Source: Heterotrichella gracilis (Eukaryota > Sar > Xanthophyceae > Tribonematales > Xanthonemataceae). From it: DNA of 64,000 bases. The notes beneath the pieces are model-generated. The model searched no databases. It saw only the letters and a program-made list of their open reading frames with translations, and was not told the origin of the DNA. The DNA is taken from assembly GCA_032358255.1 (NCBI GenBank), contig JAULBX010021076.1, positions 62,001 to 126,000 on the forward strand, written 5' to 3'. This document shows, piece by piece, positions 1-38,514 of the stretch; the first letter of the stretch is position 1, and each line of letters starts with the position of its first letter. The position numbers were made by a program, and so were the translations under genes.

Positions 1-3000
1 ATGCTCGATCCCACGGTGGGCGACGCAATCGTGAGCGCAGCCACTGAGGTCGCCGATGGCGCCCTGATGGACCATTTCCCGCTGGTGATATGGCAGACTG
101 GCAGCGGCACGCAGAGCAACATGAACGCCAACGAGGTCATCGCCAACCGGGCGGTGGAGCTGCTGGGGGGCAAGCTGGGGGACAAGGGGTCGGTGCACCC
201 AAATGACCATGTCAACAAGGGTCAGAGCTCCAATGACACCTTCCCAACGGTAAGTATTGTACTTTAAATGCGCATTTAATGTTTGAGCATTGCTATAAAA
301 GCAATAACAAACTTGGGAGGTTACTTTAGACTCCCTTTATTCTAATGTAGGCTGCAGCACTTGTGCGGTGTCGGGGACACTCCATGCATGCATCATGGCG
401 TTGACTTGTCAAAAATTGTGTCGAGGCGGCATGTGATTGCACCACCTCTGCAGCTGCGGGGTGCCAACGACACGTCATGCAGCATGGCATGGTGCCCGAC
501 CCTGCTTAGCATGGCTGCATGCCTGTCTACCTACATATCACCTTGGCGATGGCTCATCGATGCAAATAAGTTGTCATCTGATTGATGCATGTGGCCTTCT
601 GATCGTCATCTGATTGATGCATGTGGCCTTCTGATCGTCATCTGATTGATGCATGTGGCCTTCTGATCAATTTGCACTCATCATGCAGGTCATGCACATT
701 GCGGCGGTGACAGAGATCCAAGAGCGGCTGCTGCCAGGCCTCCACCATCTGCTGGTGAGTATCATGCGCACACCCTGGCCAGCATTTCCGCGAAACTGAC
801 TGTCCCCGCCTTTCATGTGGCTGGCCCCACGTGGTCGTACTCCTATGCCTGTCGCCATGTGCCTACACCAGGGGTATATATTTTCCCCCCTCTTCACTAA
901 CATACACTATAGTAACATACTAGTATACTAAGGTACGGTAGTGCTTTCTTTGATTAGTACACCCCATGCCTGCGCGTTTGTGCCCACCTTGCCTGCCCCA
1001 GGGTAATACTAATAATACTAACTAGTTAGTATTATTAGTATACCCCTGCCTGCCCCCCATAGGCCTGCGCCCATGTGCCTAGCAAACATGTGGCTGTGCC
1101 ATGTGGCCTTGCTTACATGCTGCACCCATGACCGGCTGCCAGAAATGTGAGCTGCTGTGCTGCGCCCTGCATTGCCTGAACAACCACACAATGCACCTGG
1201 CTGTGAAATCATCACTGTGAGCGGTGACCGCACGGGTCATGTCGTGGATGCGACGTGCATGCTGCTGCTGCACAGGATGCCCTCAGCGCCAAGAGTGAGG
1301 AGTTCAATTCCATCATCAAGATTGGGCGCACACACACCATGGATGCCACGCCGCTCACACTGGGTCAGGAGTTCAGCGGATACGCCACGCAGGTGGGTGC
1401 GCATCCTTGACAACCATGTGGGTTAATTGAATCAACTCATCCATGTGGGGGCCATCGTCAGGAGATTTGGGCCCATTTTGACCCTTTTTGTGACCTATGT
1501 TGTTTGAGCACATTCTACACTTTGCCAATTTTTATTACAGATTCTGAAAGGTCACTACTTGCTCAACTTTTCTGTGGTGCCACATTTTTGCGGAAAGATG
1601 TAGGTTTAAATGGTATTTACATCCAAACCTCCAGAGTGTGGAGAGTGAAGCACGCTTGCTATACGCTGGGTGCGACCCAGAAATGTGGTCACCTTGCTGC
1701 CCAGGTCAAATACGGCATCGACCGGGTCCAAGCCACCCTCCCCCGCCTCTACTACCTGGCCCAGGGCGGCACCGCTGTGGGCACCGGGCTCAACACCAAG
1801 ATCGGATACGCAGAGGCGGTGGCTGAAAGGGTTGCCAAGGATACCGGCTACCCCTTTGTCACCGCGCCCAACAAGTTTGAGGCCCTGGCTGCACACGACG
1901 CCATGGTGGAGGCCAGCGGCGCGCTCAACACCGTGGCTGTGTCGCTCATGAAGGTGGCAAATGACATCAGGTACGGCGCAATGGGGCATGCCACCATGGC
2001 TGATTATCAGATGTGCAGGGATGTGGCGCATAGGATCATGCAGTACTGAGCTCGATGGACCCTAGTGCAAGCACTTGCGCTAGGATTATTGGGGGTATTA
2101 ATGTACTGCAACTGACTGAGAAGTTGTACGATGCGTAGCAAGCCGGACAATGCAATTTTGATGAAACTTGCTTGTCCAGTTTGCACTTGACAGATTCTGG
2201 GGGCTCATATTCTTCCCGTGCTTCCCCAGGTTTTTGGGCAGCGGTCCCCGGTGTGGGCTGGGTGAGCTGCTCCTGCCCGAGAATGAGCCCGGCAGCAGCA
2301 TCATGCCCGGCAAGGTCAACCCCACACAGTGTGAGGCCATGACCATGGTGTGCGCACAGGTATGGTGGGCAGGTCCTCTTCTGGAGGACAAAGGGCCCTT
2401 GTCTCTAATCCTTGTTACCGTAATCAACACGGCTGTCCCAGGACAGGTTGCAACGTCCATAACTCATTATTTGAATTTATACATCCAATTGAGTGTTTTT
2501 CATGAATTTTTGTGCGCACAGGTCATGGGCAACAACACAGGCATCTCAGTGGCTGGCTCCAACGGCCACTTTGAGCTAAATGTGTTCAAGCCAATGATGA
2601 TCTCATCCCTGCTCCAGGTATGATCCTCTTGTTTATAATGCATCCCACCAACTTGGAAGTTTAATGACAGAAAAGGCGCACTTTTTAGAATTGATAGATA
2701 CGCCTTTTTATATCTATCATATGACCTATGGAATTGCATGGGTGCATGCATTTGAGTGTTCAGGCGGTGTATGGTGGCTTATCATTAAAGTGTCCCATCT
2801 GGAATGGGGACACTGTCTCTGCTCCAGTCATCTGCGCATTGCGCGCACTGCATCAGTGTCATCATCATCGGCATCACATGCATTTGACCCATATGCACGC
2901 TGCGCACCAGCATGCTTTCTCTGCAGAAACCCCCAGCCAGCCTCTGCCCCGTGCCACTGACCAGCGCCCCTTTGCCTGCAGTCCATCCGCCTCATCGCCG

Positions 3001-3263: not shown

Positions 3264-3876
3264 GCGGATCCCTGGTTGCGTGTGTGTGGGGGGGTGGCGT
3301 GTGTTGTCATCATGGAATCTGTAATTTTGGCATGATGAGTGCGCGGCAAATAATAACAAATATTTGGCAAGATAAATCTGCTGGGACAACTGGGTCCAAG
3401 CTGGCATATTGTGCAGTAGGTGGACGGCAGGGTGCTGTTGTTCACAACAGTGTGCAGCTTGCAAGCACTGTCAAACAATTTCCTCAAGGGCAACAATCCC
3501 ATGGTTTGGCTGGATGCGGTGGTTGGCATGGGTAGGGAAGATTGAATGCTTGGCAAGCTTGTTGTCTATGAAATAGAAATAGAACCTTGTTGTGCATGCA
3601 GCCTGATTGTCTGTGGGTGTGAATGGTGGGATCAGTTGGTCAAGTAAACGCTGCATCAGTGGGCTTCTGGGGTGTTGGGGACGCGCCAAAAAATGGAGTG
3701 ATTTTGTACACCACTGCCATGTCACCTGGTTGTATTACTTTTCCCATCCCGCCAAAACTGAGATGCGTCGGAACTTTTGGTAGAAGCGCACGAGATGCGC
3801 TGTTAAACCTGTTCGTAGCGTTTCTGTCGACTTCTAAACAGGTGTTGCTGCGCCAACCTCGTCCAATATATATAAA
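3264..3876 (+). other. Fumarase 3' UTR and intergenic DNA
   Basis: No coding exon recognised. Apart from the TGTAA word at 3320..3324 nothing stands out before the TATA-like box of the next gene. Confidence 0.6.
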
Positions 3877-3886
3877 CCTTGAAGCC
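3877..3886 (+). promoter_or_regulatory. TATA-like box upstream of the dioxygenase gene
   Basis: TATATATAAA about 30 bases before the probable start of an untranslated leader. The leader has no ATG before a good donor (GTAAGTGA at 3973) and a matching acceptor ends at 4492, so a 5'UTR intron of about 520 bases is likely. The start codon follows at 4549. Inferred from motifs only. Confidence 0.55.
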
Positions 3887-4548
3887 CACTTCTGTTCTAT
3901 CCTACGTTCACAAACCACGCTTTGCGTCGTTGCGGAGTCTCGAACCACATCAGCCAACCAGTGCTGCTCTTGGTAAGTGACACGCTCAAGGGAATTCCAA
4001 CCTCCTGCAATCTAGATCGTTTGCTTTCTTGCGGTTGGTGTAGTCTGTGAAGCATGCAGCTTGGGCTGGGTCCAACGCCTTGTGCACAGTTGGACCGTGA
4101 ACCGCATATTGCTGGACCCAGTGTGGCTCATCGAGACAAACCCAAACTTGCTGTGCCCTTGGGTAAGCTGCTGCGTATTCTAGTCTCAAAACGATTGCCT
4201 GCAGATGTTTATGTGGAATTAGGCGGTTAGGAGCCTCCAGAGCACTTTGGAATTCACTCTCGGCATGCACTTCTTCCTAGTCCTCAAGGCAAAATGGCAG
4301 CACTGTGGCACTTGTCCCATCGCACTAGCTTGACAGCCCCTTTCTTGGAGCATGTGCTGTTGCTGTTGCGCTGCTGCACCCCAATGTGCTCAAGGGGCGC
4401 TGTTTGAGCTCAGTCCACGTCGGCACACGTGTAGGCGTCCACCCTGTTCCCAACCCCCACGAAAAAACACCGTTTCCCACTTGGCCTCGCAGGCAGCTTC
4501 AAATTCAAGGACAGGAACGCTACCCAGGTCAAACACAGGAGCGCCACA

Positions 4549-6722
4549 ATGACTGGAGCCACCAACGTGCTGTCTCCCGCTGAGCAGCTATCACCAGCGT
4601 TCAGGGCTGAGCTGTCGCCCACCACCCCCAGCAATGTCTCAAGGTAAACTGCAATTGGCAAACGAACGGTTTTGCAGCAAGCAGTGTTCTTCAACCACTG
4701 TCTGTGTCTTGTCTCTGTGTTCCTTCATGGCCACACCTTGTAGTGTGCACCTGCAATTTGCCGATTCTTTGCCTGACCCCCACTTCTGCTTTTTTCTGCA
4801 GGCAGGGCAACGTTATTCCCTTCTCGATCATCGAGGGACCTGATGCCTGGGTTGCCTCAGACTACAAGGACAACACCGACTGGATCTATACCCTCACCCC
4901 TGAGGACATCCTGGAGCTGGATGCGGCAGTGAACCACGCAGAGTCCACTGGCAAGCCCATCCACGTACGTTGGCACTCTCTTATAGCCCCAGTGCAGCAG
5001 CAAAATTTGCTGACAGCTCCAATTTGTGGATAGTGCTGTTGTTACCTGTTCACTAGCTCTGCAGCGACAGGTCTTACCCACATAAGTGTTTTGGCATCTG
5101 CTGGCATGTGAGGTTTATGCCTGCAACCCGAACATCTAATCTGACTTTGGCGCCTTGCAATTGCAGGAACTCACCAAAGAGGATCTTCCATTCCCAACTC
5201 TGGCTGACAAGCTGGTGCAGTGGAGGGAAGAGGCTAGGATTGGGCGAGGTTTCCAGGTCATCCGCGGTGTCCCAGTGGATCGCTACACCAGGAAGCAGTC
5301 CGTGATTGCCTACTGGGGCTTTGGCCTGTACTGGGGAAAGACATCATCACAGAACAAGAAGGGGCACCTCATCGGCCACATCAAGGACATCGGGAACGAC
5401 CCCAACAACCCAGTCACCAGGATTTACACCACCAGGGCAGCCCAGCCATACCACAACGATGCGGCTGACCTCGTATGTAAGTTTTTGATACAGGGGAATT
5501 CCTGTTTCGAACCAAATGCAGCCGCATCTGACCTCCTGGTCTTTAGCCTCTGAAAAACTTAGAGCTGCACTTTTTGAACGAAAACTGCAGCAATTTTTGA
5601 CAACCATTGGCTTGGAAATTGACTCCTTGTTTTCCTTCTGTGCAGCCCTGCTGTGCCTCAAGTCAGCCAAGTCGGGAGGGCTGAGCAGCCTCAGCAGCTC
5701 CATCTCTGTCCACAATGAGATTGTCAGGCGTGCCCCAGAGCTTGCCAGGGTGTTTGCAGGGCCATGGTACATGGATCGCAAGAACGAAGTTCCTGAGGGC
5801 AAGCAGGGCTACTTCATGCTCCCCGTTTTCAACTACTACAAGGTACGCTAACTACATCGGCAGCTACCTTCTGTTTGCAAAACGTCTTTTAGTTCATTAT
5901 TGCTGGAATGGTAATGAATGTGTTGTGACTGCAAGTACATTCATTCAGAAGCACAAATCAAGGTGCTGTTTATTTGCCAAACCCTGCTTGGATACGTATC
6001 ACCACCATTTTGGTCAGAATTGGTTTCCTCTTTTACTGATTTCTTCCCCATCTTCTGCTGCAGGGCTACCTCAGCGTCAACTACTCTGACAACTACTACT
6101 TCCTGTCCCAGCGGTGGCCAGAGGTGCCCCGCCTGACCGAGGACCACCTGCGCGCCATCAAGCTGTTCAACGAGCTTGCGTGCAGTGACGAACTGCGCCT
6201 GGACATGCTGCTGCAGCCTGGAGACATCCAGCTGGTCAGCAACCACGTGGCGCTGCACACGCGATCAGCCTTTGAAGACTGGGAGGTGAGCTTGCCCTCC
6301 TGCTGCTGATTTCACCTGCTGCTGTTGTTGCGCATGCATTTCTTGAGCAATATGCTTGCCAATTTGAACACGCAACATGTCATGCTTTGCACCTGTCTTT
6401 ATCGGAGCATGAATCGTGTTACATGCTACTTTGCTGTCCTTAGTTGATTTTATGGCACATATGTGAGATGCAATAAATGAGCAAATACATGGGCAAAGCA
6501 GGAGCAGGCACCTTTCCGCCCAGCAGGCCCTGATTTTTCATTGCCCTTTGGCAGGAGGTTGACCAGAAGCGCCACCTGCTGCGCATGTGGCTGTCACCCG
6601 AGGTGGATCGCCCGCTTGCACCAGAGTATGCAGAGCTGTTTGGCAGCGTGGAGGTTGGCAACCGGGGCGGCATTGTGTGCCCAGGCGTGTCTGCAAACCC
6701 AGTCCCCCTTGAGGCAGAGTGA
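4549..6722 (+). CDS. TauD/TfdA-like Fe(II)/2-oxoglutarate-dependent dioxygenase
   Basis: Predicted non-haem iron oxygenase of the TauD/TfdA (clavaminate synthase-like) fold; such enzymes couple 2-oxoglutarate decarboxylation to substrate hydroxylation. The substrate cannot be inferred. Exons: 4549..4643, 4802..4964, 5167..5476, 5646..5842, 6064..6285, 6555..6722; 384 residues, typical of the family. The start is the first ATG of the first coding exon in a good context (CACAATGA). Iron ligands visible: His-Asn-Asp at residues 182-184 (QPYHNDAADL) and a distal His near 320 (VALHTRSAFED), followed by Arg near 339 (HLLRMW) where the 2-oxoglutarate carboxylate is usually held. No clear signal peptide or membrane segment, so probably cytosolic. 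It follows fumarase on the same strand, with its own promoter candidate. Confidence 0.88.
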
Positions 6723-8099
6723 ACCTGTAGATCTAGAAGAGTGCTGCCAATGGCATGAGATTGTGGTCAATGCAGCAAATTCGTTAATGTCTTTTGAATG
6801 AACCTGGTTGATGATTCATATGGAGAATATAGGGCTTTTTTGTGCATTGCTGTGGATGGCCGACCAGGGAGTATTTATGATGCTGGTTCATGTTTTCGAA
6901 AATGCCTGTTATTGTGCAAGCAGGCATCAAATAAATTGCTGTGCACGAAATGTATGGGCTTTCAAGCTGAATTAGCTATGCAGTTAAATTGTACCTATGG
7001 ACTGCTGTCTTTTTGCTGTGCATTGTGACCACTTTCAGTGGGTTGAGGCAAGTTCTGGCAGCTGGATTCTCACGAATATGGTTAGGTGGCCAATAGAATA
7101 TGCACAGGTGTCAAGACACGGTGTGCATAGGTTTCGTTCACTATTTACAATGCTAACAATTTTGTTAATTCCAGCAGTTCATGGTTTTGCCTGAGGTGTT
7201 GTTCAAATGCAGCCAGATTACCAGTGCGCGGCACAGTGTACACGCTTGTCTGGCAATGCACAGGCAAAGCGCTCTATTGGCGTTGGAAGAGTGTTGAATT
7301 TTGTCAATGACAGGACCTGGTTACATTCCATCGTGTTTTACATGTTCATGTCTGTAGGTGTTGTGACGTGTGAGGCAGTAGCGTGCATGTCATTAAATTT
7401 TATGTTCCCCAGCAGGTCACATACTATGTGGCTATCTAATTGAACTTCTAAGGTACTACTGCCAGTCTGATGGGATCTCAACTGACTACTGTCGCAACAG
7501 CTATGTTTATCCTACCAATCCCCCCCTCAGCCCTCAGGCTGCATAGATAACCAACTTTTGAATGGCATGCAACTATTTCAAGCTGTAACATCACGACTAC
7601 AATATTCAAAAAGAGTCTTCGTATAAATATTTGCCATCTGGCCACCACTATCAATGATGGCCACCCCACCGAGGATGACATCCCTTATGGCATGTATCGT
7701 GGGCAGAACTTGGATGTGATGAAAAATGTGGGCAGTGGAACCTAGTGACATGTCAGGAGTGAGTACAAATACAATCTGCACCCTGTTGAATGCAAAGCTT
7801 GACCTGCAAGTATGGCAAATCCACGTAAAACAAAATAAACATCGGCGCAGGATGGAAGCAGTTGCATCATGATGCGCACCCAAGCACCCAAATATATTAA
7901 ATGGCGCATGATGGCTGATACGTGGCCTATCATTCCAACTCCGCCAACGAGCTGTACCTGTACTACAGCATTTGCCAGCCCCAGCAATCAATGCCACGCA
8001 GTACTCAGTCCAGCAAGAGTGCCGCCTCAGTTGATGTGGTGCAACAGCGTCCCAGCTCAATGAATCATTGTGGGTCACAGCTCAGGACCTGCAGACAGC
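6723..8099. other. Intergenic, convergent 3' ends
   Basis: Lies between the 3' end of the plus-strand dioxygenase gene and the 3' end of the minus-strand glycosyltransferase gene. More AT-rich than the genes. Short open frames are present but show no recognisable protein. Confidence 0.6.
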
Positions 8100-11040
8100 T
8101 CAGTTGCACCGCGTTGCCCAGTCGTAGCCCAGCGCCGGCCCCTCCCAGTCGATTGTGACGTACGATTGGTACAGCTTGCCCACCATGCGCATGTACTCGG
8201 CTGCCACCTCGCGGCTGCGGAAGGTCTGCTCGCGCATGTGGAAGGAGACCTGCAGCCAGGGGGAAGTGACACCATTAACATGTAAAATTCGAGTTACAGT
8301 GGAAGTCAAGTAGGCCACCATCGGCCTATCGTCTGGTGCCTATTTACATGCAAACGCGGCAAGTGCTCAAAATTTCTAATGCACATAGAATGTGGACACC
8401 CGCATGTACATCCACCAGGGGTGGATGGCATGGCATCAAGGAACACCGCCCCACAGTAGCGTGCCTGCGTTTGCTACAGAGGTGCTGGATTTGGATTGGC
8501 GACCTCGCAGTGCAAAGGTACAATGAGTGAGCCCTGGCACAGTCACCTTGTCAACTGAACACCACCCACAAACCCTCCCCCACCTCCCGCCTGCAAAGCC
8601 TCAAAGCCCTCCCCGCATACCTCCCCGCCACCACACACAAAGGAAACCCTTCCCGTTACCCTACCTGCAGGTCGAGCATGCGCTGGCACATCTTGTCGCA
8701 GCAGTCTGTCTTCAGCCCACTGTACAGCCGCTCAAGCAGGCTCCTCCCATCATTGCTATGGGGGTCAAACAAATTGACCCTGGCATCCATGGCGAATCGC
8801 CCGGGGTCCGTCACCGCAAATCCCCCCCACCAGTAGCAAATTGTGGTCATGGAGTCCCCCCCTGGGAGGTAGGCGGGGAGGTAATCTGACCGGATGCACT
8901 CCTCCATCTTCTCAGGGGGGAAGGCCTGGAAAAAGCCCCGGCTGAACACCATCCCCGCGCCGCCGTAGATGAGGTACTCCCAGGCGGACCCCGTATTTAG
9001 GCCCCTGATGGTGGGAGACCCGCAATTGTCGCCATAGATGTCGGGCCGCTTGTCTGTGCCAAGGAGCAATAAAGTCAAGGGGAGGTATTGCATGGATGTG
9101 GAAATCAGAGGATGTGGACCAGCACATGGCGTGGCTGTGATGCGATTGCCCACATGTGCAACCCATGTTACAAAGTGCGTTTTGGTCCTATCCTGTTTGC
9201 ACAGCAGCGCGGTGGTGCATGGCCAGCCACAGGGATGTCAAACGTCAACCCCAGCATGATAATGATTTTGGGTTCAAGGTTTAGGGTTCCAAAGCCCTAC
9301 CTTGTTTGCACAGCAACTCAGTGGTGCAAGGGCAGCCCACCGTGATGTTAAACGTCCACCCCGGCATGATTAGGGTTTAGGTTTAGGGTTTAAAGCTCTA
9401 CCTGCTTTGCACAGCAGCGCGGTGGTGCATGGGCAGCCCACCGGGATGTCAAACGTCACCCCCGGCATGTTGTTGGACTTGTAGTGCCCACACGGCAGGC
9501 ACCGGGGCGCAGCAGTGCTGGGGTGCGTGGTCTCCGAATAGTCCTCGTGGCTAAACCACACGTGGTCCGACAGGATGTAGGGCATGTTGGGGTTCAAGGG
9601 GGTGATCATACGGAACACCCCCTCCAGGAAGAACATGGTGTCCACGTCGCCAAACAGCAGCCAGTCAAAGTCGCCCTTGTAGTGCTGGTAGGCCAGGTGG
9701 GGCGCCATGGCCCACTTGGACTTCCAGGTGTGCGGCCAGTCGTCGCTGTGGAAGTGCTGCCACGTCTCCCGGTGCAGCGCGGCGTCTGCAGGTGCGGGTG
9801 GAAGGGGATGCGCCGTGAGAGCACAGTTGATACCAGGTGACCAAGACGGGTTGGATTTTGTGTGAGGGGAGGGAGGTTGGTGGGGCCTTGTGAAGTCATG
9901 CAATCCAATTCCCATGCAATGAAAATCCAAGCAATTAAAATCCATGCAAATGAATTTTAAATAAATTAAAAATAGCACTGCATGCAGCCAATTCATGCCT
10001 CATAAAACAATGTAGCTCCGCCAAGACAGCTGGAATCAAATGCCTGATAAATTGCCTGATAGAACGCCCCCATGCCAGCTGGAGTCCGCGCCCAACGCCC
10101 AACCACGCCCTACGACTCACTCCTACCCCCACCGCCCCACCCGCTACTCACCCTTCAAGTGCGCCACATCCTTAGTCAGCGTCTCAGAGTCAGTGAGGAA
10201 GAAGCTGGGGATGCCCCTGCGCCACCGCCTGCCCGCCTCCACGAAAAGGGTGTCATCTGCCGCAGTGGCAAACACCACCCGCAGCCCATCGGGTGGGGGA
10301 ACCCCGTGGTCGATGGGGTGCGCGTCCCCCGTGAAATTCCCCCCCTCTGCCTTTTGCTCCTGCTCCCGCCACTGGGCAGCTGCGATGTTGGCTGCCGCGC
10401 CGGAGGCGGCCTGGGCATGGTGGGGTTTTTAGGGTTTAGCCTTAGGGTTTGTGTGGCACACTTGATAAACGCTGAACCCTAATGGCTGCCACGCCGGAGG
10501 CGGCCTGGGCATAGTGATGGTGATGGTGGTGGTGGATGGGTAGAGTGGGTGCGGCTGTGTATGTGGCTGTGCAAGTGTATGGAGGTGCGCGCTGGTGTGA
10601 CTGGTGGGAGGTGGTTGTGCAGGTGGTGGGTGGCTGTGCAATTTGAGCACAGGGGAGTTTGAGTGGTTTGGGACTTCAAGTTCTTTACCCAGCTCCGTAG
10701 ACTGGGTGCAAGGCAAGCCAAGGGTTGCACCCACCCATGCGCACCAACCCAAGTGCACCAACCCATGCTAGGAGCACACACCCGTGCGCACCCCTACCTG
10801 TTTGTTGGCCTGCACCTTGGCCACAATGGTGGAGCGCGTGTTGATGGCGTCGCGCTTCTGCTGCGCGTGCAGGTGGTGCTTGCGCGGGTGGACCACCTTG
10901 CTGGGGACCTTCAGCTGCTTCACCCCCTCCCCACTGGCGGTGGGTGTGTGGTGCGCCACCAGGCATAGCAGGGTCAAGACAGATGCTGCCAGCTTGACCC
11001 GCCAAAGCAAGCATTTCTGGTTGCCAAAGCGCGTTTCCAT
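8100..11040 (-). CDS. Fringe/GT31-like type II membrane glycosyltransferase
   Basis: Probable Golgi glycosyltransferase. Exons in transcript order: 11040..10798, 10410..10152, 9785..9402, 9053..8665, 8249..8100; 474 residues, phase continuous. The ATG at 11040 is followed by a short basic tail and one hydrophobic anchor (about residues 13-31, LAASVLTLLCLVAHH), then a stem rich in Lys, His and Gln: classic type II topology. The catalytic part begins with LRVVFATAADDT and FFLTDSETL, resembling the start of Fringe-type domains. The metal/nucleotide-sugar motif is DVD at residues 214-216 (WLLFGDVDTMFF). Later segments YGGAGMVFSRGFF and SIGMT-like GGDSMTTICYWWGG also fit GT31 relatives. Acceptor and donor sugar are unknown. 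Introns 1 and 3 carry copies of neighbouring exon edges. The next gene upstream is also a glycosyltransferase on this strand. Confidence 0.85.
9192..9475. repeat. Tandem copies of the GT31-like exon 3 3' edge
   Basis: Copies at about 9192..9300 and 9300..9400 precede the true exon edge and donor at 9402..9475. All share the TTTGCACAGCAGC and GATGTCAAACGT-type words. TTTAGGG-like spacers lie between them. The extra copies sit inside intron 3. Confidence 0.88.
10388..10514. repeat. Duplicated exon 2 edge in GT31-like intron 1
   Basis: The edge at 10388..10422 (start of exon 2 plus acceptor) is repeated at 10482..10514 with only a few differences, including the CTGGGCAT acceptor context. Two TTTAGGG-like runs lie between the copies. 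Confidence 0.85.
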
Positions 11041-28600: not shown

Positions 28601-31600
28601 TGATCATAACATGGCCAGGGACCAAAAAGGGGAGGGGGAGGGAGTGATGGGAAGGGGACAGTGTTCAATCAAAAGTAGAAGATGACATGAAAATTTACTG
28701 ATTACTTTGTTGCCCGTGACGCAATTCAGGATGCGGCGCTGAATCCCCCAACTTGAAATTCCTCATTTAAATCCCCACCCCCACAGCCGATCCCGAGGAG
28801 TGCGGCGACGACACCCATCTGCTGTCCCGCCAGCTCACCATTGCGCAGATGTTGCTGGGGGAGGACGCGAGGTCGGTGGGGGGCCTCACCCTTGACCGCA
28901 ACTTCATGTACCTCAGTGACACTGCCACATGTGGAAAGATGGCGGCGCTTGAGAAGCTGCTGGCGCTGTGGTACGAGCAGACACACGAGGGGAACAAGGT
29001 GCGTGGGTCTAGGGTCTAGGGTGTAGGGTGTAGGGTGTAGGGTGTAAAATTTCAGAAAATGTACAATAACCACAAACTATAGTAAAAACAATTATGTGTC
29101 GCTTTGCCAAAGTAATCTAGATCCGCCTGCAGGTGCTCCTGTTTCGCCACAGCAACAATCCTAACCATTACCCTGACCATTACCAATACCCTAAGAGTAC
29201 CCTAACCAGTACCAACATGTACCCTGATCAACCCTCCGCAGGTCCTCCTGTTCAGCCACAGCGTGAAGATGCTCAACGTGATGACGGCACTGGCGGTGCG
29301 CCAGGGCTACCCGCACGTCAGGCTGGATGGCACCACCTCCATCAAAGAGCGCCAGGAGCGGGTGGACGAGTTCAACAACTCCCCCTCACTCTTCCTGTTC
29401 CTCATTTCCACCACCGCGGGGGGGCTGGGCCTCAACCTGACGGCGGCAAACAAGTGGGTGTTGGGTGGTGTAGGGGGGGCCTGGGGTTAAACATGACGGG
29501 GGCATACAAGTGGGTGGGTGGGTGGGGTGGGAAGGCTTCATGTGGGTGGCAAGGTGGAGTGAGGTAAGGACTCTGCTGCAGCGCACATAGGTTGTTGCTG
29601 GTGCCAGAGTAAGTGGTTGTGGACAGGTGGGTAATGAATATATGTAAGGACAATTTTGCCATGTATTTTTGGCACCCTCTTGCAGGGTAGATGGTGGAGG
29701 TCCCTCCTTGTAATCCCAGTCCCACCTTCCCACAAACCCCGCCCAGTTGCAGGGTGATTGTTGTCGTTGTCCCCTACTGTCATCTCACCCCCAATGCCCC
29801 ACCCTCCCCTTGCAGGGTTGTTGTTGTGGACCCCTCCTGGAACCCCTCCCACGACCTCCAGGCACAGGACCGCGCATTCCGCATAGGACAGCGACGCGAC
29901 GTGGGAGTGTACCGCCTGGTAAGTCATGGTAGAGTATCACCAGCATCATTTACATCTTGATTTTGGCCCACAACATCCTGCAACCTGTAACCCTCCAAGC
30001 TTTGTACCCTTCCAAGCTTAATATCACTATATATCATTGCTCAAATAAGAAACGTTCAATGCTTCAGGTGGCCACGGGCACGCTTGAGGAGGCCATCTAC
30101 AGGCGCCAGGTGTACAAGCAGCAGCAGGCAAATGTGGCGGTGGAGGAGGGGCAGGAGAAGAGGTACTTCAAGGGTAAGAACTGTGCCTGGTGATGTAATT
30201 CGCACGGTCGGGGCGCATGTAGGGTAGGGTTGTCAAACTTGCCCTAAACCAATCTCAATCACCCAACCAAGATGCAGCTTGGCACAGCCCACTTGAGTGC
30301 TTGGCATGTAGGGTCAGTGCCATTGCAATGTTCCAATTGCATTGGTGTGCAGGGCTGGATCAACCTCAGCTCAAAACCCTGTTAGGGTTTCACTCTTCTC
30401 ACTCTCCCCGTGTCCCATGTGCAGGTGTGCAGGGCCATAAGACCATAAAGGGCGAGCTGTTTGGCATGCGCAACCTGTTCATGCTCACCCTACCTGGTGT
30501 GCACACACGGGACACGCTGGAAGGGGGGGGCCTGGGTGCCTCACCCCTGCAGAGGCGCCGGCTGGGTGACTACCGAGTGGAGCAGGTGGCCCTCCAAGGG
30601 GAGGCAGAGGGAGGGTTGGATGGGGACGAGGGCCTGCCGCAGGTAGGTGGCTGTGGGTCGGGGGTGGTGTGCTTCATGTGGTGTACGTTTGTTGATGCAG
30701 CAATGCGCCAGGTTGAGGTTTTAAGTACTGCCCACCCTGAGAATAGGTAGGGTCGCTGCAGGTAGGTAGGCATCCAGGGCCACGTGGTCTGACCTGAATT
30801 CTCTTGGGTTGCGCGGGAGGCAACACTAGAACGCATGTATCTAACCAAAAATTGTAATGTATAGTCCCTGGGTAGGATCCAGCAGCAGTCGTCTTCTCTG
30901 GACCTTTCGAGGAACAGTGGCAGCCATGTGCAGCCACCTGCAGCCATGTGCACGCGAGCTTGGCATCGTGCCACCACTTGCAGCCAGCTTTTGCGGTCAA
31001 CCCAGCCTGGTGGCATACCAGCAACCCCCATTGCCGGCCATGCAACAGGTTGAGGGTTGCCTGACCGACCCCCCCTTGCTGCCCCCAGGTGGATGATGCT
31101 GACGTGGCAGATGCGGGCCTGGGCCAGCTGGCACGTGAGTTGGTGCAGCACATGGGCACCGCCTCATCTGCCCCCAAGGCAGCACACCAGGAGGGCGCTG
31201 AACCTCAGATTGAGCTGCTGGAGCTGGAGGTGGGTGGGTGGGGGGCCAGGGGTTGTGACACGAGGTTCGTGGTCGTGGCATGGCATGTTACATGCCGCAT
31301 GCGTGATGTTGCGCCATCGTGTCTTCTATTCTATTAATGCCAAGTAGTCAGCAGTCGCCTTCTGTCACCAGAAAAGCTGGAAAAATAGGTGACCTGTTGG
31401 CATGGCGCCTTGTGGTGTCATGATGTGATGGTGCCTGGGCAAGGCATGCTCCCTCCCCACTCCTATAACTCGCTCTCTACCGCTGTGGTTTGCTCCCTTC
31501 TCACTTCTATGGTTCACTTTCTCCCCCTGTTGTGTGCAGGGCGCAGGCATGCTGGCCACACACGTGCATGACGCAGTGCTGGGGATGGGGTCGCCGCTCA

Positions 31601-31605
31601 AATGA
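22640..31605 (+). CDS. SNF2-family ATPase, ERCC6L2/Switch2-like, with Cys-rich insert
   Basis: Predicted nuclear DNA-dependent ATPase for repair or chromatin remodelling. Exons: 22640..22816, 22884..22922, 23032..23774 (these three tentative), then 24149..24246, 24499..24810, 25135..25275, 25596..25929, 26190..26326, 26521..26675, 26991..27125, 27694..27803, 28230..28471, 28787..28998, 29242..29453, 29816..29918, 30068..30173, 30425..30642, 31089..31229, 31540..31605; about 1226 residues. If translation instead starts at the ATG at 22942, the protein has 1184. Motifs: I DDMGLGKTVQ (split by an intron after the first G of GK), II DEAH ([10 protein letters not shown]), [47 protein letters not shown]. 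Between the two ATPase lobes is a Cys cluster (CECGSG..CC, then HCCDC, CPYC), a feature of this subfamily that probably binds zinc. The N-part is disordered, with 16-residue repeats. One intron has a GC donor. Confidence 0.93.
23167..23400 (+). repeat. 48-bp coding minisatellite (16-residue repeats)
   Basis: Units at 23167, 23215, 23263, 23311 and a partial at 23359 encode variants of [16 protein letters not shown]. They remain in frame and degrade toward the 3' end. They lie in the disordered N-terminal part of the SNF2-type protein, and unit number is likely to vary between strains. Confidence 0.92.
25905..26012 (+). repeat. Copy of an SNF2 exon 3' edge with its donor
   Basis: The end of the exon closing at 25929 (CACAAGCTACGA, then ATTCAGGTGGGTGG) is repeated at 25979..26012 with the donor intact. 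Use of the second donor would retain about 75 bases of intron. Confidence 0.85.
27126..27693 (+). other. GC-AG intron with an internal copy of the next exon's start
   Basis: The donor is CAG|GCAAGG and the acceptor CCCCCAG|ACGCG. Joining across it restores the SNF2 reading frame (ELADVQ then TRAYERVL), and no GT donor nearby does so. At 27551..27592 the acceptor and exon start are repeated, but with a short deletion after TATGAGCG. Confidence 0.8.
29124..29268 (+). repeat. Duplicated acceptor/exon start (SNF2, helicase C lobe)
   Basis: 29124..29156 resembles the true acceptor and exon start at 29236..29268 (CAGGTGCTCCTGTTTCGCCAC versus the VLLFSHS exon). The intervening DNA is built of CCCTAACCATTACC-type words. 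Confidence 0.75.
29420..29520 (+). repeat. Duplicated exon end and donor (SNF2 motif V exon)
   Basis: The exon end coding [10 protein letters not shown] (29420..29463) has a degenerate copy at 29479..29518, ending in the same ACAAGTGGGTG donor context. Confidence 0.78.
29683..29835 (+). repeat. Three-fold acceptor/exon-start array before the motif VI exon
   Basis: TTGCAGGG followed by a GTNGTNGT-type run occurs near 29683, 29751 and 29811. Only the last continues into [10 protein letters not shown]. Confidence 0.72.
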
Positions 31606-32539
31606 AGTGGGGACCACAGGCTGTCTGGGCGGAGGTAAAATGCCAGCTGCTGGGTGGGGTGGGGATTCCAAGTTGGGAATCGGCGGGAATCTGGGCAATG
31701 CAATGCCACCTCACATTGCATACGCCATCCCCTTCATCAAGGGACGGTGATGTATGTGTGACTTTCTTGTTCCACACTGTTGTACTAGTATTTTAGTATG
31801 GGTTTGGCCATTCAATCACGCTTTTTACTGGCAACTTTGCACTGCGTTGGAGTCAGTGCATCCACAATGAATTTGATCTAAGTTTCCTGCCTATGTTTGT
31901 GTATTTTCTGTGCATCTTACATTAGTTTTTTGGTTTTGTTCAGTCCACCTTTGCTATGACGTTTTTGTGCTATCATTCGATGTGGTTGCAATGCCCAGTG
32001 CATGGTTTCCGTCACTGGAAACGCTCCCAAGCGGTGGCCGTTTGGTTCAACATTGCAGCATTTTACTTCCGTTACAGAAGGACTTTACAGTGACTGTTTG
32101 AAAGGGAATTCGCAATTTTAAACGGAGCGTAAAGAGCACACCAGGGCACCCGGCCAAGGTTGCGAATTTGGCAGTAGCACTGGTTATTAGTAATGCATTG
32201 CATTGAACTTCAAAACTGACATCCTTTTTCCTACACCGCATTTAAGAGCTAGGTTGCGCCGCACTGTACAGCTCAGGGCCCCGGGGACCACCAGGTATCA
32301 ACTTTGAGTAAGTACTTAGTAATTTACTATACAATGTCATGACTGTCAACTACAAGTTGTGAATTTATCTGTTTGAACCACAGCAACGCGTTGTGCTGAA
32401 CTGAGTAGCACTCACCTGGCGTCGCACAAGTTGATCTTGACGCTTGATCAAGTTGTGATAGTTATAAATTTACGATCATGATATTAAGGATGCTCTGGTG
32501 GGGGGTAGAAGAAGCATATTTCTATTCAACTTGCCGAAT
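31606..32539 (+). other. Intergenic
   Basis: SNF2 3' UTR and upstream region of the next gene. AT-richer than neighbouring genes. No coding exon recognised. Confidence 0.55.
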
Positions 32540-33658
32540 ATGGTGACCAAGCCTAGTCTGGACCAACCAGAGGCTGTTGGTGTTCCAATGAAAAGGGCAA
32601 CCCTGGAAGTTGGTGACTATGTCATCGCCCATGTAGCATTGGACGAAGGCCGGGTGAAACGCAGGCGCCTTGGTACGTATCCAAGCTGCTGCCCTCATTT
32701 TCCGGGAAATGTATGCCATTTATTTCAAGCTCAAGAGTCCAACCTTGTTCCTGTAGGCGAGGATGGGGCTGCCGCTGTCCCAGATGCCACCGCGGCAAGG
32801 GCCGCTACAGGTATGTTGGACACATTTGAAATAGTTTGCTTGAATTTCTCTGAACACACTGCCTTCTGGTGCTATGGAGTGTGGACTACTCACACCTCAT
32901 TGTTGGTTGTTATGCATGCATACAGTGGTGTGAGCTGCTGCAGACTGACTGGTTTGGGCCCCATGCTGTTGCAGATAACGGGGGCCTCCTGGAGGCTTTC
33001 AAAGCTGAGCTTGATAAATTCAAACAAGAGCTGCACAGCAGACTGGATGCCCAGGAATTCAACCAGAAGGTCCGAATATTCAATTCCAGGATCTTTGATG
33101 GAGAACACAACCTGCGTGTGCTGCAGAGGGAGAAGCTGAGCCAGAATTCGCGGGATCCAGCTATAGGAGCCATGCCAGAGGTATTGAAAAAGAGCTTGCG
33201 CACAAGAATTTCTTGTAAAACCCTAAAATCCTAACCCCTTTGCCCACTGCCCCTGTGTGGGTGCACCACTCCCCACCCCCCACCCCATATTTTGCTGCAA
33301 ACCCTTGGTTGAAGCCAACACTGTCTTGGTACCGTAGGTGCAAGGAACCAAGGACGGGGAGTACCCCAACAACAGGGGCCAGCTGTTCAGCTTGACCAGG
33401 ATTGCCTTGAAGAACCTGGGAGAATTCTATGGCCAAGACTTCAAGCCTGTCGATGCGACTGATGCTGCACTCCTGGCCAAACAACGAGACTTTGCCCTGT
33501 TTATTGGAACACCAACATCTCGTGGGTGGCAAGTAAAAAGGAGGGGGGAAACGCTTTCCGTTTCCTGTCTTATTGATACCCACAAAATGTTGGTGTTCCA
33601 ATGTCCAGGGCAAAGTCTCGTTGCTAGGTCAGAAGTGCTGCGGTGGTCGCATCGGTAG
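32540..33658 (+). CDS. Uncharacterised multi-exon protein, C-terminus running into an inverted repeat
   Basis: No family recognised. Tentative exons 32540..32672, 32757..32810, 32975..33180, 33338..33658 give 237 residues with continuous phase. The start is an in-frame ATG (MVTKPSLDQ). The middle exon is charged and probably helical (ELDKFKQELHSRLDAQEF, then RIFDGEHNLRVLQREK). The last exon codes VQGTKDGEYPNNRGQLFSL, an alanine-rich stretch, and DFALFIGTPTS, then continues through the loop and antisense arm of the 33.39-33.72 kb inverted repeat to a stop at 33656. The last 45 or so residues are therefore probably not ancestral. Either the gene was cut short by the inverted duplication or a splice donor near 33520 leads to a lost exon. 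The downstream broken copy may be the remains of its original 3' half. Confidence 0.42.
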
Positions 33659-33718
33659 CCTTGAAGGCTTGGCCATAGAAATCTCCCAAGCTCTTCAAGG
33701 CAATCCTGTTTGGTGTGG
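33389..33718. repeat. Long inverted repeat (foldback) made from an exon and an inverted diverged copy
   Basis: Arms of about 160 bases centred near 33553-33556. Manual pairing of 33401..33525 with 33704..33580 gives about 20 mismatches in 125 positions. The centre also pairs (GGAAACG at 33547 with CGTTTCC at 33559), leaving almost no loop. The left arm is coding exon sequence. Read in reverse, the right arm encodes a similar peptide (GDFYGQAFKATDATTAALL against GEFYGQDFKPVDATDAALL) with one in-frame TAG, so it is an inverted paralogue rather than a simple mirror copy. A transcript of the upstream gene would fold into a long hairpin. Confidence 0.93.
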
Positions 33719-33721
33719 CTA

Positions 33722-34238
33722 GCAGGCAAGCAAGGCAGCATGAAATGAAATCCTACCAGCAGCACACACGGTTTGACGCAGCCTCCAGCTTGTGGAACAA
33801 CGTGAGAGGTGGTTTTGGGTCTAGGGTTTAGGGTTTGATGACAGCATCCAGCTTGTGGAACAGTGAGTGGTGGTTTAGGGTTTAGGGTTTGACGACAGCC
33901 TCCAGCTTGTGGAACAGCGTGAGAGATGGTTTAGGGTGTAGGGTTTAGGGTTTTGGCAGCGTCCAGCTTGTGGAAAAGCGTGAGGGCTGGCGCAGGGAGG
34001 AGGAGGAAAATCAGGATGGATGTCACCGCGACGGGGCTACAGCCAGAATGTGGTGGATGCCGAGGCCAGGGAGATGGCGCTGGATGCGTGGGTGGAGAGG
34101 TATGGGGGCAGGGCGCAGGCGATGCGCAGGCCTGAGCTGCCTGCGAGCATGCATGAGCGGCTGCCGGGTGCGCGGGGCAATTTCAGTGCCATGCTGGCGG
34201 CGCCATTGGCGGCCCCTCAGGCTGTGGATGGGTGGTGA
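33722..34238 (+). pseudogene. Broken copy of the 3' part of the downstream intronless gene
   Basis: Matches 36850..37165. The last 200 bases (34056..34258 against 36984..37184) are strongly similar and encode AREMALDAWVE..RPELPASMHERLPG against ARVMALDAWVE..RPELPASMRERLPG. At the start, YQQHTRF corresponds to YSEHTRF. A one-base loss near 33775 and a second shift near 34035 break the frame, and a four-fold tandem repeat splits the copy. It could instead be a terminal exon of the upstream gene, but the frameshifts argue against that. Confidence 0.65.
33768..33985 (+). repeat. Four tandem ~60-bp units with TTTAGGG spacers
   Basis: Each unit contains CCAGCTTGTGGAA followed by a GTGAG-type donor context. 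Units start near 33768, 33836, 33890 and 33954. The spacers are runs of TTTAGGG. The unit corresponds to an exon edge in the intronless paralogue (LRLVQKRE), so this looks like the exon-edge amplification seen elsewhere in the window. Confidence 0.88.
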
Positions 34239-34258
34239 TGTGGATGGAGCAGCTGCTG

Positions 34259-36067
34259 GATGGAAAGGGCAATGCCAGCTCCATGGTTCCATGCGAGGCC
34301 GCGGATGGATGATGCGGGTGGCATAGCATACATGGCAAGCCAAATGCTGCGGCTTTATATCCATGCATTTGACAAATTTCCTGGAAGATGATGCAGATGT
34401 TACATGTGATCATGCTGGGGTACAAAAAACCATCTGCAAAAGCATGTCAGTGGCACCAGCCAGGCGCAATGTTACTGAGCAGTCTATGAGGTCATTGTTT
34501 TACAGAATTCAGACACTAGCATTTCTTGAGGAGTTGTTGAGGATGAAAGATAGTATATTTTAAGAAAAAGAAAGGGAACGCGTAAGCATCCCCTGGGCCA
34601 GTACCAGGGAGTACGTCATTGCTGATAGTATAGTGTGCGTTAACCCCATGGAGGTCGAATCATATGGAAATTTTCTATTATGTCAGTCCTAGGATATGCC
34701 CTCCATTGCAGGCTGCCATCCATTGTAGCAATCCCTGGTTGCGTACACTGTAACATGATGTAACCGATGGGGTTTTTACAGCAATTACTACTATTACAGT
34801 TACAGGAAAGACTTGTAGCTTGAAGCTGAACACCGGTAACTACTACTGGCGCTGCGCATGTGCACAATGGCTGTGCTTGATGACCATTTCCATTGTGGTC
34901 GCGAGTGCGCAGTCCCTGGCCGCTCTCCTGGTTTCAAATCCGGTGTCATCAATTGCCACCATTGCCAAAGTTTGGCAACAGGGTTGTCAAGTGCCTGGCA
35001 GCACTTGAATAAACTTGCAAAAAATGTGAAGTGTATTTGGTACCAACGTTGCATGCTGTGCCAACTTGAAGGGAGAAAATTGGAATAGGTGGCGCTCAAG
35101 ACAGGCCCTCCACGGTGGGAGTTGGACTGGGTGGGGCCCCACTTGAGGTGATTGGATAAGGGGAGGACACCATAATATGCAGTCGGGGGGTAAGCCTCGG
35201 AAATCAATGACGTTGCGAGCCACAGCTCTATTTACCTCCTAACGAGCTAGACTTCTAAAAGGTGAAAACAACAACATAAAACTTGCTCAAGGCATACACA
35301 GGGCGAGTTTTGGGCTGCTAATGACACGGGCCAAGTGACCTTGGCTGTACAAGGCGCCCTTCGGCTGCCCGTTCTGCTGCAACTGACCAAGTGGATTCCA
35401 TTCTGTTAAGCGTGCTATGTAAGTAGCACCTTCAAACTCAGTTGAGGCTCAAGACGTCGTTTGTATTACAAAAGTCACTACCGTAGGCTAGTAAAGTTGC
35501 GAAAGGATATCCTTGCCAGGCATTGATGAGTTTTGTTCAAGCTAGCTTTTGTTGCTGACAGCATTGCCCGAGGTCACTGAAAAGTTATCTGAACAACTTG
35601 GCCATGCAGGCCAGCCTGCTAGATGCACACATGGTTTTCTAGACTCAGTGGCTGGCTGCGAATAAACACCCATGTAGAAGACTAGTATTGTGACAGTCAC
35701 TGCTTCAGCAGTCATGTTTCCAAATGCCTTCTTGGCAGATTCAGGACTGTTTGCGTTGACTCAATGAGAAATACATTGTGCAATACGTGATACATTGTAC
35801 ACAAAGAGTACGCCATGCCATGCAGTGCCTTCATGAAGGATCTGGCTAATTAGTTTCATAAGACAAGCATTGTCTTATTATGATTAAGTCACTTGATACA
35901 ACTTGCCATGCTGCTGACTGGCACTAAGGGGCAGCTGCATGAGGTCATTGTGAATTGCAAACTTACCTCCTGGACATTACGAAGTCATTTTCACAACCAA
36001 TTCTGTTCCTTGCAGGAACAAGCTCCTTCCTTGATTGCCAACAAGGTCAACCTCCACATATTCTTCC
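34259..36067. other. Intergenic, no gene recognised
   Basis: AT-richer DNA with short open frames on both strands and nothing recognisable. It includes one copy of a dispersed GAAAGGGAACGC word near 34569. Confidence 0.55.
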
Positions 36068-37165
36068 ATGATGTCATGGCCATCTACAGCCAACTGGAGT
36101 GCACTGCCTGGAACTGCAATAGAGCTCATTGCTGCTGCCCTCGTCAGCCAACCAGATGAATTCTGGACCTTTCAGGACATTGCTCAACAGGCAGCATCTG
36201 TGGCGATTGCTGGACCAACACACTATCTGTGCCAGCAACTTGCTCAACAAATCTGGGGACAGCTTCGAGCCTTGCTGCCACCAGTCCCAGAGTGCCCTGT
36301 ACCACCAGATGTGCAAATCACCGATGACATGACAGTCACACAGCTGAAAGCAATTGCTTATAGCCTACCAGGGCGATTGTCCAAGCAGGGCAAGAAGGCA
36401 GAGCTGGCAGCCAGGCTCAGAGCCCATCTGGCAAAGATGCAGGAGGACCTGCAGCAGTACCTGCACACCTCAACAGTGCACCCCAGCCAGCACAATTTGG
36501 TCAGAGGTGGCCGCAAGGTGCACACTTCACAAGCCAAGGACAGCTTTGGGCTGAGTGACAACGATCTTCGGACTCTGACATGTGAATCAGTCCGATGCTA
36601 CAGGACCACAAAGTATTTCTACAAGCCTGAGGAGGTGAGGCGCCTTGCCAGGGCAAAGCACGGCACGCATGCAGCGTTTCTGGCTGCTGTACTTGCGCGG
36701 CAGGCCGCCAAGCAAGCCCGCAAGGCAGCAAGGCAGGAGCGCCAGGCGCAGCTGATCACAGCCTTTCAGGCCCAGAACTTAGCTCATCCGGCTAGGGCGC
36801 TTCAATCCTGGGCCTGCATCAAGTACATTGAGACTGGGAAGGGTCATCCAGCCAACATTGCAATCCACATGCTTGAGCTGGAATTCTACAGTGAGCACAC
36901 GCGGTTCAGCGACTTCCTGCGCCTTGTGCAAAAGCGCGAGCGTGGCCAGCCTAACGGGGGCTGCAGCTACGCCAAGTTGGAGAAGGAGGCCAGGGTGATG
37001 GCACTGGATGCGTGGGTGGAGGGGTGCGGGTCCAGGGCACAGGCGCTGCTCAGGCCTGAGCTGCCTGCCAGTATGCGCGAGCGGCTGCCAGGTGGGCAGG
37101 GCAATTTCAGCGCCATGCCGGCGCCGTCAGTGGCGGCCCAGGGCCTTCAGACCATGGATGGGTGA
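36068..37165 (+). CDS. Intronless SAP-like-domain protein, lineage-specific
   Basis: A single 365-codon open frame from the tandem ATG at 36068. The same frame extends upstream to 36035 but without an ATG. Residues about 85-130 resemble a SAP motif (DDMTVTQLKAIAYSL, then GKKAELAARLRAHL), usually a DNA- or RNA-binding helix-extended-helix, so a nuclear role is possible. Further on are the Arg/Tyr-rich segment LTCESVRCYRTTKYFYKPEEV, a strongly basic helical run rich in Ala, Arg, Lys and Gln (about 215-245), and a C-terminal block (MALDAWVE..RPELPASMRERLPG) shared with the broken copy at 34.0-34.2 kb. Lack of introns is exceptional here and suggests a retrocopy or mobile origin, but no poly-A tail or target-site duplication is obvious. 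I do not recognise the full-length family. Confidence 0.7.
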   Translation: MMSWPSTANWSALPGTAIELIAAALVSQPDEFWTFQDIAQQAASVAIAGPTHYLCQQLAQQIWGQLRALLPPVPECPVPPDVQITDDMTVTQLKAIAYSLPGRLSKQGKKAELAARLRAHLAKMQEDLQQYLHTSTVHPSQHNLVRGGRKVHTSQAKDSFGLSDNDLRTLTCESVRCYRTTKYFYKPEEVRRLARAKHGTHAAFLAAVLARQAAKQARKAARQERQAQLITAFQAQNLAHPARALQSWACIKYIETGKGHPANIAIHMLELEFYSEHTRFSDFLRLVQKRERGQPNGGCSYAKLEKEARVMALDAWVEGCGSRAQALLRPELPASMRERLPGGQGNFSAMPAPSVAAQGLQTMDG

Positions 37166-38514
37166 TGTGGGTGGAGCAGCCTTCAGCAGTGGGTTGGGCA
37201 GCCTAGCATTGGCAGAGCTTACCTGGTGGTCCACTGAGGCGAGTAACATGCTGCAGCATTGTCAGCCATGCACTGGCTGGCGCATGCTTGGGGAGGATCC
37301 CAGGGACCACCTGGTGCAGAACTGTATGCCATCATGATTCTGCGCCAGATGCCACCAGAAACAGTCTCAGAATCCAAACAGACGCGTGTCGCCTGTTGGA
37401 AACTGCTCACGAGGCAGGTGCAGTAACGGTTCCTTTTGCAATTTCAATATGCGCAATGATTACCATAGGAATTAATATCAAACTTTGTGTCATCAGGCTA
37501 TGTGTGGAGTCCATCAACGCCCCACAGATTCCCATTGTGCATTGTAAGAGTGCATGCCAAATTTGTGTAACATCCTTGGAAGCTACATGCATGTGTATAT
37601 ATGTGTGCATATGTGTGTTCATTTCACGGCCATCATTGCCAATATGCCATGCCATGACACCACACTTTCCATTGATGTAACAAACCATCATGATTACAAG
37701 TTGCTGGCTAGAATGATCCTACCAATAGTTGATCCATGGCCAGTCATGGTAGACTGAATTCCAATCCAGGAGAGGCCTTGCATAACTATCAATATCTGCC
37801 GAGATACACCTTATGACACCCATATGAAGTCAACATGTTGCATATCATTGCGCGCTCTGGCTGGCAGCAGTGCATGGCCATGCCAGACATTGCCTCGATC
37901 ACATTTTCAACCCGTAAAGAGAAAGGAAAAAGGGAACGCGCACAGGGGACAATCCAGGTACTGTACTAATTAAATCGCAATGTTGGCAGCTTTCATATGA
38001 ATAGGCTCGTCATCGTGGCACGGCTAATGACTCCAAACCCATGGCATGCCTATAGTTGTACACCCAACGCCTGTATACATCAACCTTTGCAATGATCAGA
38101 ACAGTACGACTCCAGTCCTCAGTTACCAATGGCCTACAATCGCACCCATTGCACCAGGCTGAAAAAGCCTATTGCGTGAAAAAATGCATCCAACAGAGGG
38201 CCCTGGCTCTTGTTCCAGTGCCACTGAAATTAAATCCGGTGACCAGATACTGTAAATGATGATGGTATTCAGGTTCACGTGGTGTGTGGGTAAATCTGAA
38301 CGGAATGTGCTGACACAGCTGCACAGCTGCATACTACGAGTCCTCTGACTTTTGTAAGTAAACATGGTAAGGCTGCCTCAGTGCGCGGGGGGTAGGTACG
38401 TGCTCCCCTGCTCTGACCACGGGGTCATGAAGTGCGATAAAGGCTATGTTGCGATACAAGCGATATCCTACAGCTGAAGCTCACATCTCCCTGGCATTGC
38501 AAAGCAAGGTTGCC
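37166..38514. other. Intergenic, with a downstream copy of the MATE last exon
   Basis: No coding exon recognised. 38369..38445 repeats the end of the MATE last exon (38510..38580), including the region around its stop codon. A dispersed AAAGGGAACGC word lies near 37931. Confidence 0.65.

Follow-up and report, generated by a model that had tools for sequence, protein, structure and literature searches.

The window, by which we mean the whole 64-kb stretch of DNA analysed here, carries a plus-strand gene for which a four-exon model with agreeing phases could be drawn from open reading frames and GT-AG borders. Predicted exon 1 (32540..32672, plus strand), which supplies the ATG start, was placed by its open frame and GT-AG phase only, and predicted exon 2 (32757..32810, plus strand) by open frame and GT-AG borders only; exon 3 (32975..33180, plus strand), with the family-invariant residues N..R..NS, and exon 4 gain further support from three distantly related paralogues, which lie on contigs 178, 360 and 233 of this genome. 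The open frame of exon 4 (33338..33658, plus strand) holds the conserved peptide as far as 33532 and then runs on for 41 codons through the centre of a hairpin into its right arm, where it meets a stop at 33656-33658. The paralogous proteins end 5-6 residues past FALFV; the expected stop, near 33533, is absent from the host-gene frame and present as TAA in the right arm, and in the gapped alignment a single base separates the stop and no-stop states of the two arms.

In a whole-genome protein search the paralogues gave weak matches (E 0.015-0.033, 35-40% over about 50 residues), which rose to E 1e-6 to 1e-7 when the search was limited to the three loci; protein identity over the aligned region is 29-32%. 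All three share with the host gene a C-terminal motif and an intron position (intron borders set by eye), in keeping with the original prediction, which had placed the left arm of the hairpin within an exon. No Pfam family exceeded its cut-off with three exon queries, and the spliced host protein found no match at E <= 0.1 among 402 candidates from the protein collection, exon 1 having no homologue among them. Profile searches of the collection returned one relative at first and then at least five (sources ena/jgi; of 7998 candidates, the second search scored only those sharing most words). Judged by these similarities, the host gene appears to be a member of an unnamed family of small proteins with a conserved C-terminal motif and a shared intron position. 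TGTAA, the green-algal poly(A) signal, is absent from 33215-34748 on the plus strand and is also missing within 3 kb downstream of two of the three paralogues. Further along the window, positions 34062-34253 and 36986-37180 form a direct duplicate (82%), in which the end of a 376-residue open frame (36035-37165, with a sub-threshold SAP match) recurs 2.7 kb upstream. The GC content of the host DNA lies between 0.48 and 0.59.

A foldback hairpin had been predicted at 33389..33718, and an inverted repeat is indeed found there. Aligned without gaps, its left arm (33397..33542, plus strand), within the predicted last exon, and its right arm (33563..33708, minus strand) are each 146 nt long and 82% complementary, with 119 of 146 positions matched, 27 mismatches and 20 nt between them; the earlier estimate of about 84% over 125 positions comes close to the 81.5% measured over 146. 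The centre (33543..33562) includes a 7-base inverted pair, GGAAACG/CGTTTCC, identified by eye, which flanks 5 nt (33547-33565). When gaps are allowed, 33397-33559 pairs with 33547-33708, nearly closing the centre at an identity lower than that of the ungapped arms; since this pairing extends into the 20-nt centre, the locus is a 312-bp quasi-palindrome with almost no loop. Self-BLAST recovers the whole palindrome over 312 columns (79%, E 1.3e-75). Directly outside the right arm lies a minisatellite of telomere-like TTTAGGG units (33770..33990). Among inverted pairs with arms of at least 40 nt lying at most 5 kb apart, the 64-kb window contains only the hairpin and one 43-nt, 72% pair.

As RNA, positions 33380-33725 have a minimum free energy of -220.6 kcal/mol; 100 shuffles averaged -108.5 (sd 5.8), and none of them matched it (z -19.4). 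This is the fold that the original prediction had called for, and it gives the extensive foldback pairing required of a plant-type MIRNA or hairpin siRNA gene. The minus strand folds equally strongly (-223.6). A known RNA family was rejected for the hairpin, Rfam having given no match at the gathering score across 30000-38000, although a new family would not need to have one.

The two arms differ in standing. Similarity to the paralogues continues upstream of the left arm, past 33397, and breaks off mid-exon at the right arm, with none beyond 33708; the left arm therefore belongs to the resident exon, of which the right arm is an inverted, partial copy begun mid-exon. Divergence between the arms amounts to 18.5% of sites (15 transitions and 12 transversions, K80 0.21), and the differences are spread over the codon positions as 10/49, 8/48 and 9/49. 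Of 48 codons 18 differ, 4 synonymously and 12 in the residue encoded, and 2 are stops in the copy, an in-frame TAG within the peptide and a TAA after it, near its expected end. The peptide of the copy had been described as similar, conservatively changed and bearing a single stop: it is still readable, but the stops number two, and several substitutions, such as F to D and R to C, are radical. Among the transitions, 8 preserve a G:U pair in a plus-strand transcript and 7 do not, and selection on pairing was rejected on this count, although the sites are few and the power low. By the same low-powered comparison of few sites, neither protein nor pairing appears visibly conserved between the arms. 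With arms this far apart and no excess of pairing-preserving changes, the hairpin is not young.

The hairpin is also single-copy. Searched as DNA against the 68.5-Mb genome it matched only itself (two matches, self plus and self minus), so that it is not a dispersed element, and a MITE was rejected on this ground; an inverted-read assembly artefact was likewise rejected because of the 18.5% divergence of the arms. For short targets, one 24-mer of the left arm, allowed up to 3 mismatches, had three sites in 68.5 Mb, namely the left arm, the right arm and an antisense site in exon 1 with 2 mismatches, and a control pattern had none. The genome DNA and protein searches, together with this one 24-mer, thus found neither a near-complementary target in trans nor a founder paralogue. 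The original prediction held that small RNAs from the hairpin could silence paralogues of the exon, and proposed a search for other copies of the exon as targets: that search returned nothing but the hairpin at the DNA level, the relatives are three and weak, and the 24-mer occurs only in the hairpin's own gene. As the paralogues are only 29-32% identical in protein and the genome holds no second copy by DNA search, silencing of paralogues is not supported by the sequences compared.

The third site of the 24-mer belongs to a 26-nt antisense match between part of the left arm and predicted exon 1 (32575..32600, minus strand), identical at 24 of 26 positions. Its two differences each affect the third base of a codon in the exon-4 frame, where both are synonymous. 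In 1000 Markov shuffles the best match reached 20/26, and 24/26 was never attained. Inverted matches this strong between segments 100-1500 bases apart number two in the 197 kb surveyed, the other being a pair at 600-656/1166-1222 of locus L030 that is related to the dispersed repeat of locus L013; one more, between segments 1500-5000 bases apart, joins two copies within locus L014. We consider the exon-1 piece more likely to be a further small inverted copy, left as a scar by the process that made the hairpin, than a target site.

Palindromes of this kind recur in the genome. Across 197 kb, made up of 147 kb (the window and nine loci) and 50 kb chosen before its sequence was seen, on contigs already met, we found eight short-spacer palindromes of at least 80 bp (range 80-312 bp). 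The window hairpin (33397-33708) and three palindromes of L014 on contig 178 (3756-3841, 3851-3962 and 4300-4414) come from loci selected for study; the remaining 123 kb holds four, one of them a dispersed repeat. These four are L013 7347-7638 (contig 211:59347-59638, 292 bp), L029 854-1036 (contig 3, 183 bp), L030 4113-4271 and L039 9423-9520. Copy number was examined for five of the eight, leaving out the three in L014, and four proved single-copy (the window hairpin, L029, L030 and L039); the L013 palindrome is dispersed, with at least 53 genome matches (self and both strands counted, 40 of 89 candidates scored), and is perhaps a MITE.

The controls returned far less. A mirror-sequence control gave one match (length 42) in the 147 kb and none in the 50 kb, three Markov shuffles of the 197 kb gave 2, 1 and 2 matches with a longest alignment of 50, and 20 kb of bacterial contig gave no palindromes. 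At a slightly lower threshold, with all sizes admitted, there were 13 palindromes against 2 in the mirror. Five shorter palindromes (window 999-1048, L013 3349-3376, L014 3381-3406, L028 9131-9160 and L038 461-482) and two spaced inverted pairs stand outside the count of eight; that at window 999-1048 is AT-rich, 50 bp long and 92% self-complementary. When 11 palindromes of all sizes (L039 left out) were compared among themselves, no two matched. The class is not uniformly spacerless: 20 nt lie between the ungapped arms of the window hairpin, 27 nt in L013, 63 nt in L029, 25 nt in L030 and about 40 nt in L014 4300-4414.

A one-arm state is visible at one member. L014 contains a tandem duplication (3516-5446 / 7099-9051), of which copy 1 bears the three palindromes. 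At the position of 4300-4414, copy 2 has the left flank, a single arm and the right flank in order, and the arm that it lacks is the one it has in reverse complement; the arms match each other at 34/38, and arm and copy 2 at 30/38. This order and these identities are what one would expect had the inverted copy arisen in situ once the tandem duplication existed, although homogenisation of the arms might likewise increase their likeness. The single-arm state is clear in copy 2 for one of the three L014 palindromes.

The genome probably possesses the machinery for small RNAs, since exons encoding the Piwi domain, on contigs 3 and 388, and a Dicer dimerisation domain, on contig 160, exceed the Pfam cut-offs. 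Of the original reading, an inverted duplication of a coding exon, in a genome that has Argonaute and Dicer domains, is supported, but the silencing of paralogues is not. The Argonaute gene is apparently divided between contigs 3 and 388. The L029 palindrome is flanked by Piwi-domain matches (440-604 and 1242-1406), in what is probably an intron of this gene. RNase III matches on contigs 111 and 442 were discarded as evidence for Dicer because these contigs look bacterial; the loci taken from them (L025 and L026) have long uninterrupted frames, which we take to encode acyl carrier protein, ketoacyl synthase, RNase III and others, perhaps of Bacteroidota, and the assembly seems to include bacterial companions.

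We suggest that the hairpin is probably the decayed remains of a local inverted duplication, made by template switching with little or no spacer. Its right arm is a reverse-complement copy of adjoining resident DNA set off by a short spacer or none, as template-switch duplication requires, and the short spacers together with the one-arm state in L014 point to a strand copied on itself or on its neighbour. While the locus was being replicated or repaired, a strand whose end lay just beyond the stop codon would have folded back (snap-back or intra-strand template switching) and been copied for about 150 bases, which would place an antisense copy of the 3' part of the last exon, with a few bases past the stop, directly downstream; the copy would then have drifted to its present difference. 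For the hairpin locus itself, we infer the one-arm before-state from the paralogues, which are 29-32% identical, and arm homogenisation or later deletion could imitate parts of the palindrome pattern. Two old paralogues in convergent, tail-to-tail arrangement, with the right-hand gene cut short by the flanking minisatellite, would also account for a right arm whose translation remains family-like and stops near the expected end. We regard this as quite unlikely, given a spacer of almost nil, a similarity that stops mid-exon, differences that show no coding constraint by codon position and the failure of the genome protein search to find another close paralogue. That the palindrome is a MITE or an error of assembly is very improbable indeed: the comparable L013 palindrome on the same contig is a dispersed repeat, but the hairpin is single-copy and built from resident exon sequence, and its arm divergence is unlike what an inverted-read artefact leaves.

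Two further explanations give the hairpin a function. In one it is the founder of a microRNA or siRNA locus, derived from inverted duplication of its target gene, transcribed, diced and silencing paralogues in trans. The strong fold, the inverted copy of a coding exon and the Argonaute and Dicer domains agree with this, but we give it little credence, because the 68.5-Mb genome yielded no paralogue near enough in DNA, the diverged arms show no excess of pairing-keeping changes, and the one arm 24-mer has no site beyond its own gene. In the other the hairpin is a cis-acting or self-targeting element under selection, in which a small RNA from the left arm base-pairs to the 26-nt exon-1 site, or the hairpin tunes its own mRNA through Dicer. 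Such pairing would involve one G.A mismatch and one G.U over 26 nt, at the sole match of the 24-mer outside the hairpin, stronger than any found in the shuffles and of a kind rare in the 197 kb, where the other instance is repeat-related; mRNAs with exon stem-loops that respond to a Dicer-like protein are also on record in Chlamydomonas (PMC4817775). Set against this are a pairing that bears no sign of constraint at its few sites, an exon 1 predicted from open frames only and an antisense piece that could be another template-switch insertion, and we think the explanation improbable, if worth keeping in view.

A transcript through both arms, if made, would fold into an imperfect duplex of about 150 bp, and given the existence of Argonaute and Dicer domains, dicing of the host's own mRNA in cis would be possible; the likeliest effect, if there is any, may thus be Dicer cutting the host mRNA rather than silencing paralogues. 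We regard the hairpin as most probably a decayed example of a class that recurs in this genome, inverted duplications with short spacers. More tentatively, and with the balance rather against it, we suggest that snap-back copying is unusually active in this genome, seeding genes and introns with single-copy, short-spacer palindromes 80-312 bp long at tens per megabase, probably including an intron of Argonaute, and so continuously supplying raw hairpins for small-RNA genes. Among the literature matches listed (titles and abstract openings, most subscription journals falling outside the search), none tallied palindromes of this sort in the nuclear genome of a green alga. Taken alone the hairpin is an old mutational scar, and its value lies in what it points to: should short-spacer inverted duplications indeed arise at tens per megabase, the alga would be a natural system for following the birth and decay of hairpins and the origin of small-RNA genes, and would let one ask whether Dicer tolerates hairpins within mRNAs.

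Template-switch mutations can create hairpins (Monttinen and Loytynoja, 2022; PMC8794818), and as in the template switches described in that work and in great apes (PMC7954356), a one-step reverse-complement copy of neighbouring DNA would here have produced a stem. The great-ape tracts, as summarised in the latter source, have a median of 12 and a maximum of 128 nt, whereas the arms described here are about 150 bp, longer than that maximum, and strongly decayed, and their mechanism is one we infer. Plant microRNA genes, for which an origin by inverted duplication is described (PMC5511227), share with the hairpin a foldback derived from an inverted duplicate of coding sequence; in contrast to them, the present hairpin, known from its DNA, is not young, and our searches found no near-identical target in trans. 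In the mitochondria of Nematomorpha, inverted repeats of up to 284 bp likewise overlap coding sequence, but those palindromes (PMC6649704) are perfect with both arms coding, whereas here the copy arm has decayed and lies in no recognised organelle genome. A further comparison is with the stem-loop mRNAs of Chlamydomonas, in which DCL3 lowers the level of such transcripts and the authors conclude that cleavage is direct: 47 DCL3-sensitive mRNAs have stem-loops in exons, classes summed, with siRNA precursors lying in the 3' UTR of 21 and in the coding sequence of 3 (PMC4817775). What these mRNAs have in common with our locus is a 3'-terminal hairpin in a protein-coding gene and a genome that bears Dicer, the difference being that Dicer sensitivity is reported there, whereas the hairpin described here is known from its DNA sequence.
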